Below are positions 43,527 to 52,889 of a stretch of DNA of 64,000 nt, one piece after another. Each line of letters starts with the position of its first letter. Position 1 is the stretch's first letter. The DNA lies in NCBI RefSeq assembly GCF_001592745.1, contig NZ_LUKD01000005.1:372001-436000 (forward strand). The letters are read 5' to 3'. Position numbers and translations under genes: made by a program. Under the pieces are notes generated by a model that was given only the letters and a program-made list of their open reading frames with translations, was not told where the DNA came from and did not search any database. Source of the stretch: Bdellovibrio bacteriovorus. GTDB taxonomy: Bacteria; Bdellovibrionota; Bdellovibrionia; Bdellovibrionales; Bdellovibrionaceae.

Positions 43527-46500
43527 CTACAGATTTCTTCTGTATTGGCCGCCCACTTCGTACAGAGCTTGAGTCATTTGGTACAAGCTGCAGTGTCTTG
43601 CTGCTGTCATCAACGCTGTGAAGATGTTTCCGCCGTTCAGAACTGTGTCTTTCAAATTCTGCAACTGACGTTCGCCTTCGGTTTGATGGTCCTTTTGGTA
43701 TTTCTGCACATTGCTTAACTGCGCGTTTTTCTCTTCGTAAGAAGCGCGAGCGAGTTCGATCTTTGGTGGCACGTAATCCGCCGCCATCGTTTTTGGATCG
43801 ATGAATGTGTTTACACCAATGATGGGCAAAGTGCCGTCGTGTTTAAGTCTTTCATAATACAACGACTCTTCCTGGATTTTGGAACGTTGGTATTGAGTCT
43901 CCATTGCACCCAAAACGCCGCCGCGTTCGTTGATCTTTTTAAATTCGTTTAAGACCGCTTCTTCAACTAGATCTGTCAATTCTTCGATGAAGTACGAACC
44001 CTGCATTGGGTTTTCATTCTTCGTCATACCGAACTCACGGTTGATGATTAGCTGAATTGCCATGGCACGACGAACAGATTCTTCTGTTGGCGTCGTAATA
44101 GCTTCGTCATACGCATTCGTGTGCAAGCTGTTACAGTTGTCGTAAAGAGCAATCAACGCCTGCAATGTCGTACGAATATCGTTGAAGTCGATTTCTTGCG
44201 CGTGCAAGGAACGACCTGACGTTTGAATGTGGTACTTCAATTTTTGTGAACGATCGTTTCCTTTGTAAAGGTCCCGCATCGCTACCGCCCAAATACGGCG
44301 GGCCACGCGTCCCAAGACTGAATACTCAGGATCTAGACCGTTACTGAAGAAGAAACTTAAGTTCGGAGCAAAGTCATCGACTTTCAATCCACGAGCCAAA
44401 TAGTACTCAACGAATGTGAAACCATTTGAAAGTGTGAACGCCAATTGGGAAATCGGATTCGCACCCGCCTCGGCAATGTGGTAACCCGAAATACTGACTG
44501 AATAGAAATTTCTGACTTTGCTGTTTACAAAGTATTCTTGAATATCACCCATCATCTTCAGAGCGAAGTTGATAGAGAAGATGCAAGTATTCTGCCCCTG
44601 GTCTTCCTTTAAGATATCGGCTTGAACCGTGCCGCGCACTTGTTGCAAAGTCCAGTTGGCAACATCACTCCACTCTTCGGGAGTCAGCTTACGACCTAAC
44701 TCGCTTTCTTTCTTTTCAACCTGTTGATCAATCGCCGTGTTGAAATAAAAAGCCAGAATCATCGGTGCCGGACCGTTGATCGTCATACTCACAGAGGTAT
44801 TTGGATTGATAAGATCAAAGCCTGCATAAAGCTTTTTCATATCCGCCAAAGTACAGATACTAACGCCCGACTCGCCCACTTTTCCGAAGATGTCGGGACG
44901 CTGATCAGGGTCTTGTCCATACAGTGTGACAGAGTCAAAAGCCGTCGAAAGACGATGAGCCGTTTCACCCTTAGTGAGATAATGGAAACGACGGTTTGTT
45001 CTTTCTGGCGTTCCTTCGCCCGCAAACATACGCTTTGGATCTTCATCCGCGCGTTTTAACTGGAACACACCTGCCGTGTAAGGGAATTCACCCGGAACGT
45101 TTTCAAGTTTTAAATATCTAAAGCGATCGCCCCAGTCTTTAAACTTAGGGACAACCACGCGACGGATTTTCGTGCCCGATAATGACTCGCGCACCAAAGG
45201 TTGGCGGATTTCTTTGTCACGGACTTTAAACACCAACTCATCACCGGAATAAGTTTCAATCAACTTTTCATAACCTTGAAGTTGATCAATCTCTTCTTGA
45301 GTGAAGTCTGAAGAAAGTTCTGCTTCGACCTTTTTAACGGTTTCAGGGCTTGTTCCCAAAAGAGGAGCCACTTTCTTAAGGCCACCCAATTGAGAAGCTT
45401 TTTCCGCCAATGTTTCCGTGCGCTTTTTATACTTGTGAACAGTGCCAACGATTTCAGCCAAATAGTTTTGGCGATCGGCTGGGATGATCACGTGTTCTTC
45501 TGCTGAAAGAATATTCGCTTTGAATTTAGGATCCACCTGCCATTTAGCTCCCTGACGAGACTCTAAAAGATCAGCAAGTTGGAAGAATAATTTATTCACG
45601 CCGCCGTCGTTGAATTGTGAAGCCTGAGTCAAGAACACAGGAACTTGCACTTTTTCATCAAAGATCTTGCGAGAGCGTTTGTATTGTTTTGTCACGTCAC
45701 GAAGAGCGTCTAAAGCTCCGCGGCGGTCGGCTTTATTTACCGCAATCAAGTCCGCAAAATCGATCATATCGATCTTTTCAAGCTGCGACTGCGCACCGAA
45801 ATCCGAGGTCATCACGTACATGGACATATCACTGACTTCCGTGATCGCCATATTGCCCTGACCGATCCCCGAAGTTTCCGCGATAACGAAATCAAAATCC
45901 AACTGACGAATGAACTTCAAAATTTCAGGCAAAGAAGACGCGATCTCACGACCTGATCCACGTGAAGCGACGGAACGCATGAACACGTGGTTGCGAGACA
46001 ACGAGTTCATACGAATACGGTCGCCCAACAACGAGCCACCCGTTTTACGCTTCGAAGGGTCTACACAGACCACACCGATTTTTTTATTGGGATAGGCATT
46101 CAAGAATCTTTGCACAAGTTCGTCGATCAAAGAGGACTTACCTGCGCCACCTGTGCCGGTGATACCTAAAACCAAAGGCTCGCCATTTTTCGCTTTGAAG
46201 TTCTGCAAGCCAAAGTTTTCTAGTGAATAGTCTTTGTGACCGTTTTCAATCGCCGTTAAAGCCACGCCCAATTCCACTGAAGGAATGGTGTCGCCCGCAA
46301 AGATATTCTTTTTCGTTTTAAATTCTTTTTGTTTTTCTAAGACATCAAAGTCACAGCCACGAATGACTTGTTCAATCATTCCCTCAAGACCCAATTTACG
46401 ACCATCTTCCGGGTGGAAGATCTGGGCGATACCGTAAGCTTCCAGTTCACGTTTTTCTTCGTGAACGATCACACCGCCACCGCCTCCGTAAATACGCACG

Positions 46501-46769
46501 TAACCTGCGCCCGCTTCGTCTAGAAGATCCTTCATGTACTTGAAGTACTCCATGTGACCGCCCTGGTAAGAGCTGATGCAGACGCCTTGAGCACCTTCTT
46601 GCAAAACGGCTTTCACCACATCACTGACCGAGCGGTTGTGACCTAAGTGAATGACCTCGGCTCCCATATCTTGAAGAATACGGCGCATGATATTGATGCT
46701 GGCGTCATGGCCGTCGAAAAGTGCGGCGGCCGTTACGATACGAATAGGATTCTTAAGTGTATATGCCAT
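43527..46769 (-). CDS. icmF: Fused isobutyryl-CoA mutase IcmF
   Basis: 1080 residues with three modules in IcmF order. The N-terminal B12-binding domain has DGHDASINIMRR at 19-30. A MeaB-like G-protein domain has the P-loop GTGGAGKSS at 205-213, and a C-terminal acyl-CoA mutase TIM barrel runs from about 520. It interconverts isobutyryl- and n-butyryl-CoA with coenzyme B12, and related forms take isovaleryl- or pivalyl-CoA; the fused GTPase edits the cofactor. Substrate preference cannot be read. It lies five bases downstream of the enoyl-CoA hydratase gene, in an operon suited to branched or short-chain acyl-CoA degradation. Confidence 0.95.
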   Translation of the reverse strand: MAYTLKNPIRIVTAAALFDGHDASINIMRRILQDMGAEVIHLGHNRSVSDVVKAVLQEGAQGVCISSYQGGHMEYFKYMKDLLDEAGAGYVRIYGGGGGVIVHEEKRELEAYGIAQIFHPEDGRKLGLEGMIEQVIRGCDFDVLEKQKEFKTKKNIFAGDTIPSVELGVALTAIENGHKDYSLENFGLQNFKAKNGEPLVLGITGTGGAGKSSLIDELVQRFLNAYPNKKIGVVCVDPSKRKTGGSLLGDRIRMNSLSRNHVFMRSVASRGSGREIASSLPEILKFIRQLDFDFVIAETSGIGQGNMAITEVSDMSMYVMTSDFGAQSQLEKIDMIDFADLIAVNKADRRGALDALRDVTKQYKRSRKIFDEKVQVPVFLTQASQFNDGGVNKLFFQLADLLESRQGAKWQVDPKFKANILSAEEHVIIPADRQNYLAEIVGTVHKYKKRTETLAEKASQLGGLKKVAPLLGTSPETVKKVEAELSSDFTQEEIDQLQGYEKLIETYSGDELVFKVRDKEIRQPLVRESLSGTKIRRVVVPKFKDWGDRFRYLKLENVPGEFPYTAGVFQLKRADEDPKRMFAGEGTPERTNRRFHYLTKGETAHRLSTAFDSVTLYGQDPDQRPDIFGKVGESGVSICTLADMKKLYAGFDLINPNTSVSMTINGPAPMILAFYFNTAIDQQVEKKESELGRKLTPEEWSDVANWTLQQVRGTVQADILKEDQGQNTCIFSINFALKMMGDIQEYFVNSKVRNFYSVSISGYHIAEAGANPISQLAFTLSNGFTFVEYYLARGLKVDDFAPNLSFFFSNGLDPEYSVLGRVARRIWAVAMRDLYKGNDRSQKLKYHIQTSGRSLHAQEIDFNDIRTTLQALIALYDNCNSLHTNAYDEAITTPTEESVRRAMAIQLIINREFGMTKNENPMQGSYFIEELTDLVEEAVLNEFKKINERGGVLGAMETQYQRSKIQEESLYYERLKHDGTLPIIGVNTFIDPKTMAADYVPPKIELARASYEEKNAQLSNVQKYQKDHQTEGERQLQNLKDTVLNGGNIFTALMTAARHCSLYQMTQALYEVGGQYRRNL

Positions 46770-46774
46770 TTGGA

Positions 46775-47575
46775 CTATTGACCTTTAAAGTTCGCCTTAC
46801 GTTTTTCGATGAAAGCGGAAGTGCCCTCTTTCACGTCTTCAGAGTCGAAAAGATCTGCAAAGATCTTCGCTTCATTTCTTTGCGCCTCTTCCACATCCAT
46901 ATCCCAAGCTTGGTTGATGGATTTTTTCGCAGAACCCACTGCAATCGGAGCTTTTGCTAAAATAGCTTCCACAGTTTTCATCACAGTGTTCATAAGCTCT
47001 GCTTGCGGAACGACTTTATTCACAAGACCCATTGTGTGCGCTTCTGCCGCAGTGATCATACCGCCTGTGTAAGTTAATTCACGCGCGCGACGTTGACCGA
47101 TAGCGCGAGCCATGCGAACTGTCCCGCCAAATCCTGGGATCAATCCCAGACTCACTTCGGGAAGACCGAACTTTGCATTTTCAGAAGCATAGATAAAATC
47201 ACAACCCAAAGCCAACTCACAGCCGCCGCCCAAAGCAAAACCGTTCACCGCCGCGATGACTGGAATTTTTAGAAGAGTCAGCTCGTGGAAAATACTTTGA
47301 CCACGTTGAGCAAAACTCAACGCTTTTTCTTCATCGAGTTCATGGATTTCTTTGATATCCGCGCCAGCCACGAAAGCCTTTTCGCCACTGCCTGTGATAA
47401 TAAGAGCGCGCGCATCTTCGTAGTGCATTTCACCGATTTGACGAAGAGCTTCGCCCATCTCGTTTAGCACCATAGAGTTCAATGCGTTAAGAGCTTCAGG
47501 ACGGTTCACCGTCATCACCCAAACGCCGTTTGGTTTTTGTTCAACTAAAATTGTCTTGTAAGTAAAACTGCCCAT
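46775..47575 (-). CDS. Enoyl-CoA hydratase (crotonase family)
   Basis: 266 residues. The oxyanion-hole strands are visible at KAFVAGADIKEIHEL and ALGGGCELALGCDFIYA, with the catalytic glutamates in GGGCEL and GLPEVSLGLIPGFGGTVRM. It hydrates trans-2-enoyl-CoA, probably crotonyl-CoA, judged from the neighbouring hydroxybutyryl-CoA dehydrogenase. Same strand and five bases upstream of icmF; the hbd gene ends nine bases before it. Confidence 0.92.
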   Translation of the reverse strand: MGSFTYKTILVEQKPNGVWVMTVNRPEALNALNSMVLNEMGEALRQIGEMHYEDARALIITGSGEKAFVAGADIKEIHELDEEKALSFAQRGQSIFHELTLLKIPVIAAVNGFALGGGCELALGCDFIYASENAKFGLPEVSLGLIPGFGGTVRMARAIGQRRARELTYTGGMITAAEAHTMGLVNKVVPQAELMNTVMKTVEAILAKAPIAVGSAKKSINQAWDMDVEEAQRNEAKIFADLFDSEDVKEGTSAFIEKRKANFKGQ

Positions 47576-47584
47576 TTTTAAAAC

Positions 47585-48445
47585 CTATTTCGCTGAATAG
47601 TCGTAGAAACCACGACCTGTTTTACGTCCCAACCATCCTGCTTCAACATACTTCACGAGCAATGGACATGGACGGTATTTAGAATCTCCCAAACCATCAT
47701 GAAGCACGTTCATGATCGCAAGGCACGTATCAAGACCGATAAAGTCTGCCAAAGTCAAAGGACCCATCGGTTGGTTTGTTCCCAATTTCATCGCGGAATC
47801 GATAGACTCAACAGAAGCAATGCCTTCATGAAGAGTGTAAACCGCTTCGTTAATCATCGGCATCAAGATGCGGTTCACGATAAAGCCTGGCATGTCTTTC
47901 ACAGACTCAACAAAAACCTTATCCATTTTTTCTGCCAAAGCTTTTACTGTCGCGAAAGTCTCATCAGAAGTTTGCAGACCACGAATACCTTCAACAAGTT
48001 TCATCAAAGGAACCGGATTCATAAAGTGCATGCCTGCGACTTGAGTTGGACGCTTCGTCACTGCCGCGATCTTTGTAATAGAGATTGAAGAGGTATTAGA
48101 AACAAGCAAAGCCTCTGGCTTCACGGCTGCGTCTAGGTCTTTAAAGATTTTCAATTTCAAATCGATGTTCTCTGTCGCAGCTTCAATCACGATGTCGCAG
48201 TCTTTAAGAGCGGAAGCTTCTTGAGCGGTTTTAATACGACCCAACAATATCGCTTTGTCCGCTTCGCTCATGCCGCCTTTTTTGATAATGCGGTCACAAG
48301 AACCAGCGATCGTTGCGATCCCTTTTTCCAAAGCAGCGCCGTTGACGTCCATCATGATGACGTTGAAGCCAAAGTTTGCCGCTACTTGTGCGATGCCGTT
48401 ACCCATTTGCCCAGCGCCGACGACGCCGATCGATTTGATATTCAT
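47585..48445 (-). CDS. hbd: 3-hydroxybutyryl-CoA dehydrogenase
   Basis: 286 residues. The NAD motif [20 protein letters not shown] opens the protein, followed by the catalytic His in [53 protein letters not shown] and a terminal [12 protein letters not shown]. It oxidises 3-hydroxybutyryl-CoA to acetoacetyl-CoA. The operon hbd-crotonase-icmF would take butyryl-type intermediates into central metabolism. The acyl-CoA dehydrogenase step is not encoded here. Confidence 0.94.
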
Positions 48446-49937: not shown

Positions 49938-50231
49938 CTACTTCCAGAGCTTTCCCGCGCACATCAGATAAAACATTTTGAAATCCCCGCGCAAGGACCA
50001 CAGAGGATGCGTGAAGGTCGCTGGGCGATTCTTTTCAACAATAAAGTGCCCGACCCAAGCAAAACCATAACCAATCAACGGTAAAAGCCACAGAACGGTC
50101 CAAGTCTTCGTGATGAAGGCATAAATGAACACGGCGTGAACTAAAAAAGTCCCGACGAAATGCAGACGACGATTGCGCGGATCTGAATGTTCGCGCAAAT
50201 AAAAAGGCCAGAATTCTTCGAAGCTTTTCAT
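49938..50231 (-). CDS. Mpo1-like (DUF962) membrane protein
   Basis: 97 residues with two hydrophobic stretches. The conserved histidines of the Mpo1/YGL010w family are visible in FYLREHSDPRNRRLHFVGTFLVH and GFAWVGHFIVEKNRPATFTHPLWSLRGD. Yeast Mpo1 is an Fe(II) dioxygenase that removes one carbon from 2-hydroxy fatty acids; the bacterial members are uncharacterised. It lies 18 bases after plsC, so it may belong to the same lipid-linked operon. Its stop nearly abuts the convergent gene. Confidence 0.88.
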   Translation of the reverse strand: MKSFEEFWPFYLREHSDPRNRRLHFVGTFLVHAVFIYAFITKTWTVLWLLPLIGYGFAWVGHFIVEKNRPATFTHPLWSLRGDFKMFYLMCAGKLWK

Positions 50232-50249: not shown

Positions 50250-50987
50250 CTATACTTGAGCCTCAGGGAAATAAGGCTGCATCATGTGACGAACCTTTTC
50301 TTGCAACTGGGGTCGCGACTCTAAAGCATATTGAGTGGCATCCACCGGTGGCAACACATACAAGGTCACCGTGCGCTTCCACACGCCCCAGTTCGGAACA
50401 ATATGGCCTTTAGGAAGAATCGCCGCCGCCCCTTTGACCACAACCGGTACAATCGGAGATTTCGCATTAATGGCAAAGATAAAAGGACCTGACTTGAAAG
50501 ACCCGAGCCTTTCCGTCACTTGCCTTGTTCCTTCGGGCGCCAGAGCAAAACGCTCCCCCGCTTTGATACGAGTTTCAGCCTCTTTATAAACCTTAAAAAC
50601 CTCTTCGCGACGGTCGCGCGCAATCGGCAAAATTCCGGCTCGACGCATAGCCGGGCCAAAAACAGGAATGCGGAAAAGCTCGATCTTCGCACCGAAACGG
50701 AAACTTCCCAAGTATCCATTCATCGCGAAAATATCAAAGAAGCTTGTGTGGTTGAAAACGTAAATAAATCCGCCAGGAGGTTGATTCTCAAGGCCTTTCA
50801 CGATGACTTCAACGCCGAACATGCGGCAAGCACCGCGGGTCCAAATTTCAACAATGCGATCTTCGAGCGGGCGGTTCTTCATTGTCAGATTCACAATGAT
50901 AAGAGCGATCGAACACAACATTGTGTGAATCGGAAAATAAACAAGTGCTAAAATGGAGCGAGGGTATGAAAGTAATTTCCAAAACAT
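50250..50987 (-). CDS. plsC: 1-acyl-sn-glycerol-3-phosphate acyltransferase
   Basis: 245 residues. The catalytic NHTSFFD motif (HX4D) is at about residue 79-85, and the phosphate-binding FALAPEGTRQ block follows at about 150. An N-terminal hydrophobic segment anchors it to the membrane. It makes phosphatidic acid from lysophosphatidate. The ATG lies one base after the stop of the upstream RelA/SpoT-like gene, so the two are translationally coupled. Confidence 0.9.
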   Translation of the reverse strand: MFWKLLSYPRSILALVYFPIHTMLCSIALIIVNLTMKNRPLEDRIVEIWTRGACRMFGVEVIVKGLENQPPGGFIYVFNHTSFFDIFAMNGYLGSFRFGAKIELFRIPVFGPAMRRAGILPIARDRREEVFKVYKEAETRIKAGERFALAPEGTRQVTERLGSFKSGPFIFAINAKSPIVPVVVKGAAAILPKGHIVPNWGVWKRTVTLYVLPPVDATQYALESRPQLQEKVRHMMQPYFPEAQV

Positions 50988-50988
50988 A

Positions 50989-52095
50989 TTAACTCATCTC
51001 AGGAAACAAACGTTTGCGCGCCGCTGTTCTCTGTCTTTCTTTGTACGCTTGATGCTCTGAGGGGCCTGATAAAATTCTTTCGTGAGCCGATTGATCCATG
51101 ATCTGCACTTCAAAAGGATAAAAGAAACTAAAAGCTTCTTGGCTCCCTTGGGGTTTAATATGAATCAATTTACGGGAAATGAATTTAATAAACTTATAAT
51201 CCGCACCGGAAAAGAAATTTTCTTTTCGCAGATACTGAACGTTATCACCCATCTCGGAGAGTTTTTGATCAAAAGCAGCTTGAATACTTTGCTCATCCAA
51301 AGTGTCCAACCGGTGAGAAAGATCGTCACACACTTCCATGAATACATTCACCGGATAAAGATTGTTAGAGCTTTGATCCGGCATGATGTGCGGAAAACTG
51401 ATCACATTTTCTTTCACCAAAAAACGTACGACTTGGAAAGTATCAAAAAGATTGCGCGTGATAAAACGTACACCCAGCTTATCAAAGATCTTCATCGCCA
51501 AAGCATCGGGTTTGGCCAAAAGTTTAATCACCGTGCTGGAAGAAGTTTTAAATGGTTTTACTTCAAAACCTAGAAGTTCAATAGGATCTAAGATGTGCTC
51601 ACCAGCCGTAGAACTTTGCAAAAAAGTCCGGTGAGTCGTGCCGTCATAGCGGATGCACTCTTGAAACGGCGAAAGAATTTGCGATTGGATTTCTTCAGAA
51701 AAAGAACTGAAGAGATCATTTTCTGCATGAACAAAAACGTGCATGCAGCGAAGAATCGCACAGGCCCAGCGTTGCAGTTGAACTTGTTCGGGGTCTTGTG
51801 AACTTGCGTAAATTAATAACTGGCGGATGTCCCCAAGCTGGCGGCGGTCTCTAAAAATTTCAGGAAGTTCTTTATCTTCAAAGCCCAGCTTTTCTAACAT
51901 CAGAACCAGGGCACGACGGTGGTAGTACCAAAGTTTTTCTAAGTCGTTTTCTTTGGTGAAATCGAATCCATAACTTAAAAGGAAAGACGTCGCGGCCTCG
52001 AGAGAATGAATATTGAGCCTAGGAATTTCGATGGCAGAATGACCACCGACAACCGAGTTCAGAATGGAAGAATCAAAGATGAAACGTTGAGGCAT
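50989..52095 (-). CDS. Protein with divergent RelA/SpoT-like motifs (TIGR04552-type unknown)
   Basis: 368 residues, no signal or membrane segment. It recalls a conserved deltaproteobacterial family of unknown function (TIGR04552-like). Three stretches echo the RelA/SpoT synthetase domain: DKLGVRFI (205-212, compare DxxGxRii), FEVQIMD (328-334, compare EVQIRT) and EHQAYKERQ (347-355, compare ExxHxxYK). The substrate-loop region reads MPDQSSNNLYP where synthetases have PKxNGYxSxH, so the Tyr is missing. Activity is uncertain: a divergent or dead alarmone enzyme or a nucleotide binder. It is coupled to plsC, one base apart. Confidence 0.6.
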   Translation of the reverse strand: MPQRFIFDSSILNSVVGGHSAIEIPRLNIHSLEAATSFLLSYGFDFTKENDLEKLWYYHRRALVLMLEKLGFEDKELPEIFRDRRQLGDIRQLLIYASSQDPEQVQLQRWACAILRCMHVFVHAENDLFSSFSEEIQSQILSPFQECIRYDGTTHRTFLQSSTAGEHILDPIELLGFEVKPFKTSSSTVIKLLAKPDALAMKIFDKLGVRFITRNLFDTFQVVRFLVKENVISFPHIMPDQSSNNLYPVNVFMEVCDDLSHRLDTLDEQSIQAAFDQKLSEMGDNVQYLRKENFFSGADYKFIKFISRKLIHIKPQGSQEAFSFFYPFEVQIMDQSAHERILSGPSEHQAYKERQRTAARKRLFPEMS

Positions 52096-52143: not shown

Positions 52144-52800
52144 TTATTGGATCAAAGCACACGTGTAGGCTTTGAACTGACCCAGAGTACCCGAAGCAGG
52201 AGAATATCCGTTTACCGCCGTACGATTTTGATATGTCACATTCCCTTGAGCAAGAGTGCCGTCGTATTGACCTTGGAACACGATATCACCGTAAGAGTCG
52301 CTAAACTTCACTGTGAATTGACGCGTATTGCGATTAATAGTTCCTGAAGCCGCCGCAGAAAACTCAACTTGGTAAGGCTGGATCACCTGGCCGTTATAAG
52401 ACTGACCCGCGTAGGAATCAAAGATCTTGATAAGAACAGTTGAAGAACCCGCCACTAAATTTCCCGAAGAATCAAATTTAAATGCACCGAAGAAATCAAT
52501 ACCAGTCTTATCATTGATATTGCCGCTGATAGTGCCCAGTGTTTGTGGATCCAAGGTAGCAGAGATAAAACTCTTTACTTGGGATTCAAAACTTCCTGAA
52601 TTGTAGTAATCATAGATCTTACCCACATTCATGGAGGCATTCCCGCAGCTATTCACCGCATTGGGCTGAGTGACCGCCGGTGTGTTTGAGCGGCCCGCAA
52701 CGCGTGTCGCGCTGGATTCCTTCTTCGCACAAGCTGATAAGGACAAAGCCACAAGGACCAAGATTCCCATCACTGATTTGTTAAAGAAAGATGTTTTCAT
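52144..52800 (-). CDS. Lipoprotein, unknown function
   Basis: 218 residues from ATG 52800, with GGAG upstream. The signal peptide ends in the lipobox LSAC, so the mature protein is acylated at Cys. The mature part has a low-complexity Ser/Asn/Thr/Pro N-terminus and a strand-rich C-terminal half (VLIKIFDSYAGQSYNGQVIQ, GQYDGTLAQGNVTYQNR). Cysteines at both ends could pair. No family recognised. Monocistronic. Confidence 0.85.
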   Translation of the reverse strand: MKTSFFNKSVMGILVLVALSLSACAKKESSATRVAGRSNTPAVTQPNAVNSCGNASMNVGKIYDYYNSGSFESQVKSFISATLDPQTLGTISGNINDKTGIDFFGAFKFDSSGNLVAGSSTVLIKIFDSYAGQSYNGQVIQPYQVEFSAAASGTINRNTRQFTVKFSDSYGDIVFQGQYDGTLAQGNVTYQNRTAVNGYSPASGTLGQFKAYTCALIQ

Positions 52801-52889
52801 AAAAGCCTCCATGCCAATCATAGAGGCAAGAGGCGGACCATCAAAAATGCAATATATTGGATTTGAGAGGGAAAACCCGTCTCACCCTG

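Follow-up and report, generated by a model that had tools for sequence, protein, structure and literature searches.

The window, the whole 64,000-nt stretch of Bdellovibrio bacteriovorus DNA that was analysed, contains a reverse-strand open reading frame at 50989..52095 (−) that starts with ATG and encodes a 368-amino-acid protein with an N-terminal helical region followed by a predicted RelA/SpoT-type synthetase fold. Two NCBIfam models match the protein over its full length, TIGR04562 (394.9 bits against a cut-off of 140, residues 8–364) and TIGR04552 (394.2 bits against 125, residues 5–364), and both carry a family number with no functional name. Directly downstream, after a gap of 1 bp, lies a plsC-like 1-acylglycerol-3-phosphate acyltransferase gene (50250..50987, (−); PF01553, E 4.7e-26), followed by a gene for a small Mpo1-like (2-hydroxy-palmitic acid dioxygenase) protein (49938..50231, (−); PF06127, E 4.8e-40). 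A probable small lipoprotein gene lies 48 bp upstream (52144..52821, (−)), and its product has an LSACA lipobox-like start and no Pfam family. The genome from which the window comes (3.76 Mb) holds one copy of the family gene and one canonical long Rel. The reading frame, which the first-pass annotation had picked out by its motifs, is confirmed as a gene. Within the class Bdellovibrionia, 118 of the 144 genomes have a match above the family cut-off. The suggestion that it forms a previously undescribed branch holds in part: an NCBI number already existed, but no functional name is attached to it, and the literature mention found for the family is an entry in a mutation table (PMC9888234). In genome G115 the match falls into two adjacent parts, covering positions 2–113 and 114–351 of the model (L062:5421-6128 and G115:C135:55529-55873), owing to a frameshift or an assembly error.

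Alone, the 368-aa protein matched the RelA/SpoT profile PF04607 at E 0.036 and 14.8 bits (the Pfam gathering score is 27), with residues 183–229 aligned to profile positions 4–49. More distant members of the family score better on this profile than the window protein. When 36 members were run against 24,736 Pfam models, PF04607 was matched by 34 of them at E ≤ 1 (best E 4e-9), and every other Pfam family was matched by at most two. In whole-genome scans, two members exceeded the gathering score, and as called proteins L184 reaches 35.8 bits and L185 32.0 bits; the match of L184 runs over residues 188–390 and profile positions 4–111 of 113. Searches of the PDB with single protein sequences gave only noise, and therefore a family profile was needed. 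Run against 177,635 distinct PDB sequences, this profile hit four at E ≤ 10, and each of the four is an alarmone synthetase (YwaC, E 0.011; RelSeq, E 0.042; and two mycobacterial Rel proteins). As sequence matches they are individually weak, but their common family membership is not. The hhalign probabilities were low, 16 to 42%, with shallow alignments.

The AlphaFold2 model, built with 41 family sequences, has a mean pLDDT of 88.6 and a pTM of 0.79. A Foldseek search of the PDB placed alarmone synthetases in the first 37 chains, with a best E of only 4e-4, and VIA-align placed them in its first 23 entries, led by RelQ (5ded; Z 11.2 over 152 residues, 3.6 Å). The part of the model matched by these folds comprises residues 120–354, and as modelled the synthetase fold is present. 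Residues 1–130 modelled alone (pLDDT 83.6) matched nothing significantly in the same searches (best Foldseek E 3.1, VIA-align Z 3.7). We had considered this region as a degenerate HD hydrolase and rejected the assignment, as the separate prediction and fold search gave no usable match; a very degenerate HD remnant within these residues is possible. At 368 aa, and with no HD, TGS or ACT domain found in a Pfam scan, the protein is not a long RSH (Rel/RelA/SpoT) protein.

The synthetase motifs follow one another in the order K183-x3-S187-x3-K191, D205-K-L-G208-V-R210, E329-V-Q331-I and H348-x2-Y351-K352, and by sequence count the spacings from K183 through S187, K191 and D205 to R210 (4, 4, 14 and 5) are nearly equal in the genome's own Rel. 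For conservation, 136 distinct family members were compared, of which 109 belong to the class and 27 to other parts of the phylum; K180, K183, K191, D205, G208, R210, N244, N293, R308, E329 and Q331 do not vary among them. The putative syn1-like ATP site, K180-x2-K183-x3-S187-x3-K191 (51523..51558, (−)), keeps its lysines in 136/136 members and S187 in 131/136, with K183, S187 and K191 aligned to the R-x-K-x3-S-x3-K motif of the solved synthetase YwaC. The canonical Arg of R-x-K, which is usual but not required for the superfamily, is replaced, position 181 being mostly Pro, and in the alignment to YwaC the invariant K180 stands one residue before this position. The syn2-like D205-K-L-G208-V-R210 (51466..51483, (−)) aligns with YwaC, RelSeq and mycobacterial Rel, and the syn4-like E329-V-Q331 (51103..51111, (−)) with the EIQI of RelSeq. 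By alignment, D205 and E329 are the counterparts of Asp264 and Glu323 of RelSeq, which are reported to be catalytic in that enzyme, where Tyr308 serves in base stacking (PMC9143738). The syn5-like H348-x2-Y351-K352 (51040..51054, (−)) aligns to the AHWxYK of Rel; H348 and Y351 are kept in 135 of the 136 members and K352 in 131, with Arg in the rest. A further, family-specific motif, H119-x3-H123-x3-D127, lies on one helix (51715..51741, (−)), with H119 present in 136/136 members, H123 in 130/136 and D127 in 133/136.

The ordered DxxGxR, EVQI and EHxxYK signatures reported for this protein are thus confirmed, with their key residues invariant or nearly so, and on sequence grounds the ordered motifs exceed chance, as judged from this invariance and from the independent profile and fold searches. 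The proposal of a divergent RelA/SpoT relative is backed by the sequence profile, the predicted fold and the motif conservation; the profile search gave PF04607 and the predicted fold is that of an alarmone synthetase, and the outcome that would speak against kinship, a missing profile match with a different fold, did not appear. We conclude that the 368-aa protein almost certainly belongs to the RelA/SpoT synthetase superfamily, by its fold and its catalytic core. The kinship of TIGR04552/TIGR04562 with RelA/SpoT is new here; the NCBI family number is pre-existing.

The acceptor (G-)loop, residues 239–305 (51181..51381, (−)), is remodelled, with a helical insertion between the invariant N244 and N293. 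Its size is put at about 45 residues because two helices, 249–260 and 268–285, are predicted between these Asn residues in the AlphaFold model. The family shows no recognisable GRFKDYIAxPKxNGYQSxH block in one contiguous piece. At the position of SxH, which is described as guanosine-recognising (PMC12226406), members of the class mostly have F302-I303-K304 (FIK) and members elsewhere [AS]-I-[QH], a pairing that assumes the Y300 register; in three non-class members a His stands there, giving Y-x-[AS]-I-H, near YQSLH. The register is ambiguous, and fixing it with hhalign was abandoned, as the runs pair Tyr308 of RelSeq with either Y300 or F295. The Y300 position is Tyr in 100, Phe in 30 and His in 6 of the 136 members. 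RelSeq contacts GDP through Lys297, Lys304, Asn306 and His312 (PMC9143738), contacts that are only partly represented here because the register of Tyr308 varies by alignment run. The earlier remark that the Tyr-containing loop has changed is therefore right for the loop, which is altered by a large insertion; depending on the alignment, the Tyr is either retained as Y300 or has F295 in its place. With the block absent and the register ambiguous, the protein lacks the canonical G-loop, with PKxNGY and SxH, that marks strict-sense (p)ppGpp synthetases. Since the loop is rebuilt and SxH replaced by FIK, (p)ppGpp as a product is possible but not assured. Judged by these residues, the donor side seems intact, and the acceptor side looks unlike the standard guanosine site.

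Compared with the small alarmone synthetases RelP/YwaC and RelQ/YjbM (PF04607), the family is alike in predicted fold (Z about 10–11), in the order of syn1, syn2, syn4 and syn5 and in the catalytic Asp and Glu, and it likewise has no recognised HD, TGS or ACT domain. It differs from them in about 100 additional N-terminal helical residues, in the loss of the canonical Arg of R-x-K, in the helical acceptor-loop insertion of about 45 residues, and in having FIK or [AS]I[QH] for SxH and EVQIMD for EVQIRT. The genome's own bifunctional Rel (L203, 738 aa) keeps its HD and SYNTH motifs and has the synthetase motifs in a like order, whereas its HD hydrolase, its C-terminal regulatory region and its canonical GRFKDFIAMPKANNYRSLH block are all absent from the 368-aa protein. 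The toxSAS, CapRel and Tas1 proteins share the synthetase fold (Z about 7), but the family has no evident antitoxin and no defence-model match, and it is a core gene of the phylum. Two other kinds of PF04607 protein were seen. A separate 345-aa protein with an extra C-terminal region, found in two genomes of the phylum (L204:4543-5580 and L206:655-1692; 67 bits), is a synthetase other than the family, and a 453-aa protein with an apparently signal-like N-terminus (L205:4749-6110; 31.7 bits) is possibly an exported alarmone-synthetase-like protein.

On balance, we favour a catalytically competent enzyme of the RelA/SpoT synthetase superfamily, namely an ATP pyrophosphotransferase that depends on Mg2+ and has a non-canonical acceptor loop. 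By homology, K183, S187 and K191 would hold the ATP phosphates and D205 and E329 the Mg2+, and the acceptor, sitting in a loop other than the canonical G-loop, would receive pyrophosphate on one of its hydroxyls; in this scheme we infer catalysis, metal and donor. Two kinds of acceptor appear about equally likely, GDP/GTP, which would yield (p)ppGpp, or another ribonucleotide-type molecule. Catalytic competence itself seems probable from the conserved residues. The first-pass annotation had also raised a nucleotide-sensing pseudo-enzyme. On that reading the protein would bind a nucleotide in the fold without catalysis and regulate the downstream acyltransferase. The lost Arg of R-x-K, the rebuilt acceptor loop and, within the class, the translational coupling of the gene with plsC speak for such a protein, but this reading is disfavoured because the ATP and proposed Mg2+ residues never vary: D205, E329, K183, K191 and R210 are unchanged in 136 members from several classes, which is unusual for pseudo-enzymes. 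A dedicated PlsC regulator also fails to explain the phylum-wide conservation because plsC does not adjoin the family gene outside the class, and we consider the pseudo-enzyme or sensor reading unlikely.

A special case of the pyrophosphotransferase is an extra (p)ppGpp synthetase that uses the ordinary GDP/GTP acceptors despite its odd loop and supplies ppGpp independently of Rel. The catalytic core, invariant in 136 members, agrees with this, as do the nearest folds, those of the small synthetases RelP/RelQ, and the His at SxH in the three non-class members. Lys297, Lys304 and His312 of RelSeq (contacts from PMC9143738), however, have no clear counterparts, FIK replaces SxH in class members, and Rel is already present in the good-quality genomes tested, so that we hold this special case to be possible but doubtful, and we are equally hesitant about (p)ppGpp as the main product. 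A toxic or RNA-modifying synthetase, such as a toxSAS-like tRNA pyrophosphokinase or a (p)ppApp maker acting as a defence or competition factor, would come from the same superfamily, and CapRel and Tas1 are among the VIA-align matches (Z 7.2–7.3). It is nevertheless very improbable: PADLOC gave no match, on which ground a defence system was rejected, no antitoxin-like partner is evident among the adjoining genes, the gene is near-universal in the phylum with no plasmid match, and the protein does not have the GxN motif that characterises enzymes making (p)ppApp (PMC12226406). The lower VIA-align matches to DNA polymerases lambda and beta (Z 6.5–7.5, lambda at about 7.5) would agree with a protein that shares only the nucleotidyltransferase fold and transfers a nucleotide instead of pyrophosphate, as in pol-beta-like chemistry; as the higher fold matches and the sequence-profile matches are all alarmone synthetases, there is hardly any likelihood of this.

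The plsC adjacency behind the putative functional link to lipid synthesis is conserved within Bdellovibrionia and does not extend beyond it. Of the 142 class loci, 103 have a plsC-like gene downstream on the same strand at a distance of −60 to +100 bp, and in 43 of these the two genes overlap by 4 bp; the 142 loci include near-duplicates drawn from two collections. Outside the class, the family gene had no plsC homologue next to it, and since the adjacency is confined to the class we rejected it as a demonstration that the protein acts in lipid metabolism. There, pgpA (phosphatidylglycerophosphatase A, PF04608) is near the family gene in 15 of about 28 loci, always on the other strand and in most cases directly divergent from it. 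As pgpA often lies next to recA, this adjacency may be incidental. The occurrence of phospholipid genes in two contexts, plsC in the class and pgpA outside it, is at most suggestive, and the plsC coupling hints that the output of the enzyme would matter during membrane phospholipid synthesis. Other neighbours recur as well. At many loci of the class a homologue of the lipoprotein gene adjoins the family gene, a neighbourhood conserved in part of the class. Genes for a fused methylmalonyl/isobutyryl-CoA mutase-like protein, an enoyl-CoA hydratase and a 3-hydroxyacyl-CoA dehydrogenase form a row at 43527-48445 in the window, and many other class loci likewise have them no more than about 5 kb away from the family gene. 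Outside the class, two oxidoreductase-like genes running in the same direction often come next after the family gene (L190, L191, L192, L193, L194, L195, L196, L197, L198 and L214); their products are about 400 and 650 aa long, and the larger has cysteine clusters like those of ferredoxins.

Across the phylum, 261 of the 291 genomes sampled carry a family match, as do 209 of the 223 of good quality; most have a single copy, and many of the genomes lacking a match are small. In a 59-genome sample, all 45 good-quality genomes had a PF04607 match, the best being the canonical long Rel where listed. The best 80 of 511 relatives in a scan of genome contigs are titled as Bdellovibrionota-type or as unplaced metagenome bins, and the family presumably has members in myxobacteria too. 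A plasmid search gave no family relative. Phage or plasmid origin was rejected, there being no viral-contig and no plasmid relative; the one 'phage' match lies in a record rich in cellular genes. That match, at 10001-11083 of L224 (MW495066.1 113540-134622), is a family member with 28% identity over 95% coverage; the 274-kb record was deposited as 'Microcystis phage MaAM05' and has the family gene beside engB, glyS, secF, secDF, acpS and mtgA, so that it seems to be a contig of bacterial, perhaps Bdellovibrionota, origin deposited as phage.

In experimentally evolved Bdellovibrio sp. NC01, a one-base deletion at 1,817,535 in DOE51_RS08710, a 'TIGR04552 family protein', reached >75% in line B (PMC9888234). 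Genome G015 is NC01, for it has 12 of 12 published ancestral bases at their stated positions, with agreement in the residue types. The deletion lies in codon 247 of 366 of its family gene. As the frameshift precedes N293, E329 and HxxYK, an inactive product is to be expected, and from its frequency in line B it follows that the gene was not needed: it is dispensable in NC01 coculture, its loss having been either selected or hitch-hiked. All six evolved NC01 lines survive starvation better (PMC9888234). We did not accept the frameshift as the cause, as all six lines improved and the mutation is at high frequency in one only; thus, the starvation phenotype is not assignable to it.

The RelA/SpoT superfamily has already yielded unexpected chemistry, namely (p)ppApp and tRNA pyrophosphorylation, and an enzyme with a rebuilt loop may make a different signal molecule. 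A bolder form of the proposal, to which we give only modest credence, is a phylum-wide second nucleotide signal enzyme that works beside the Rel stringent response, with an acceptor other than GDP, GTP, ATP or tRNA and a possible tie to phospholipids. The gene is a core gene of nearly the whole predatory phylum and has so far been known by a family number alone; with its superfamily placement, catalysis apparently kept and its loop rebuilt, its product is therefore directly testable. Bdellovibrio alternates between a starving attack phase and growth inside prey. If true, this phase switch could plausibly be controlled through a second nucleotide signal that tracks the making of membrane.
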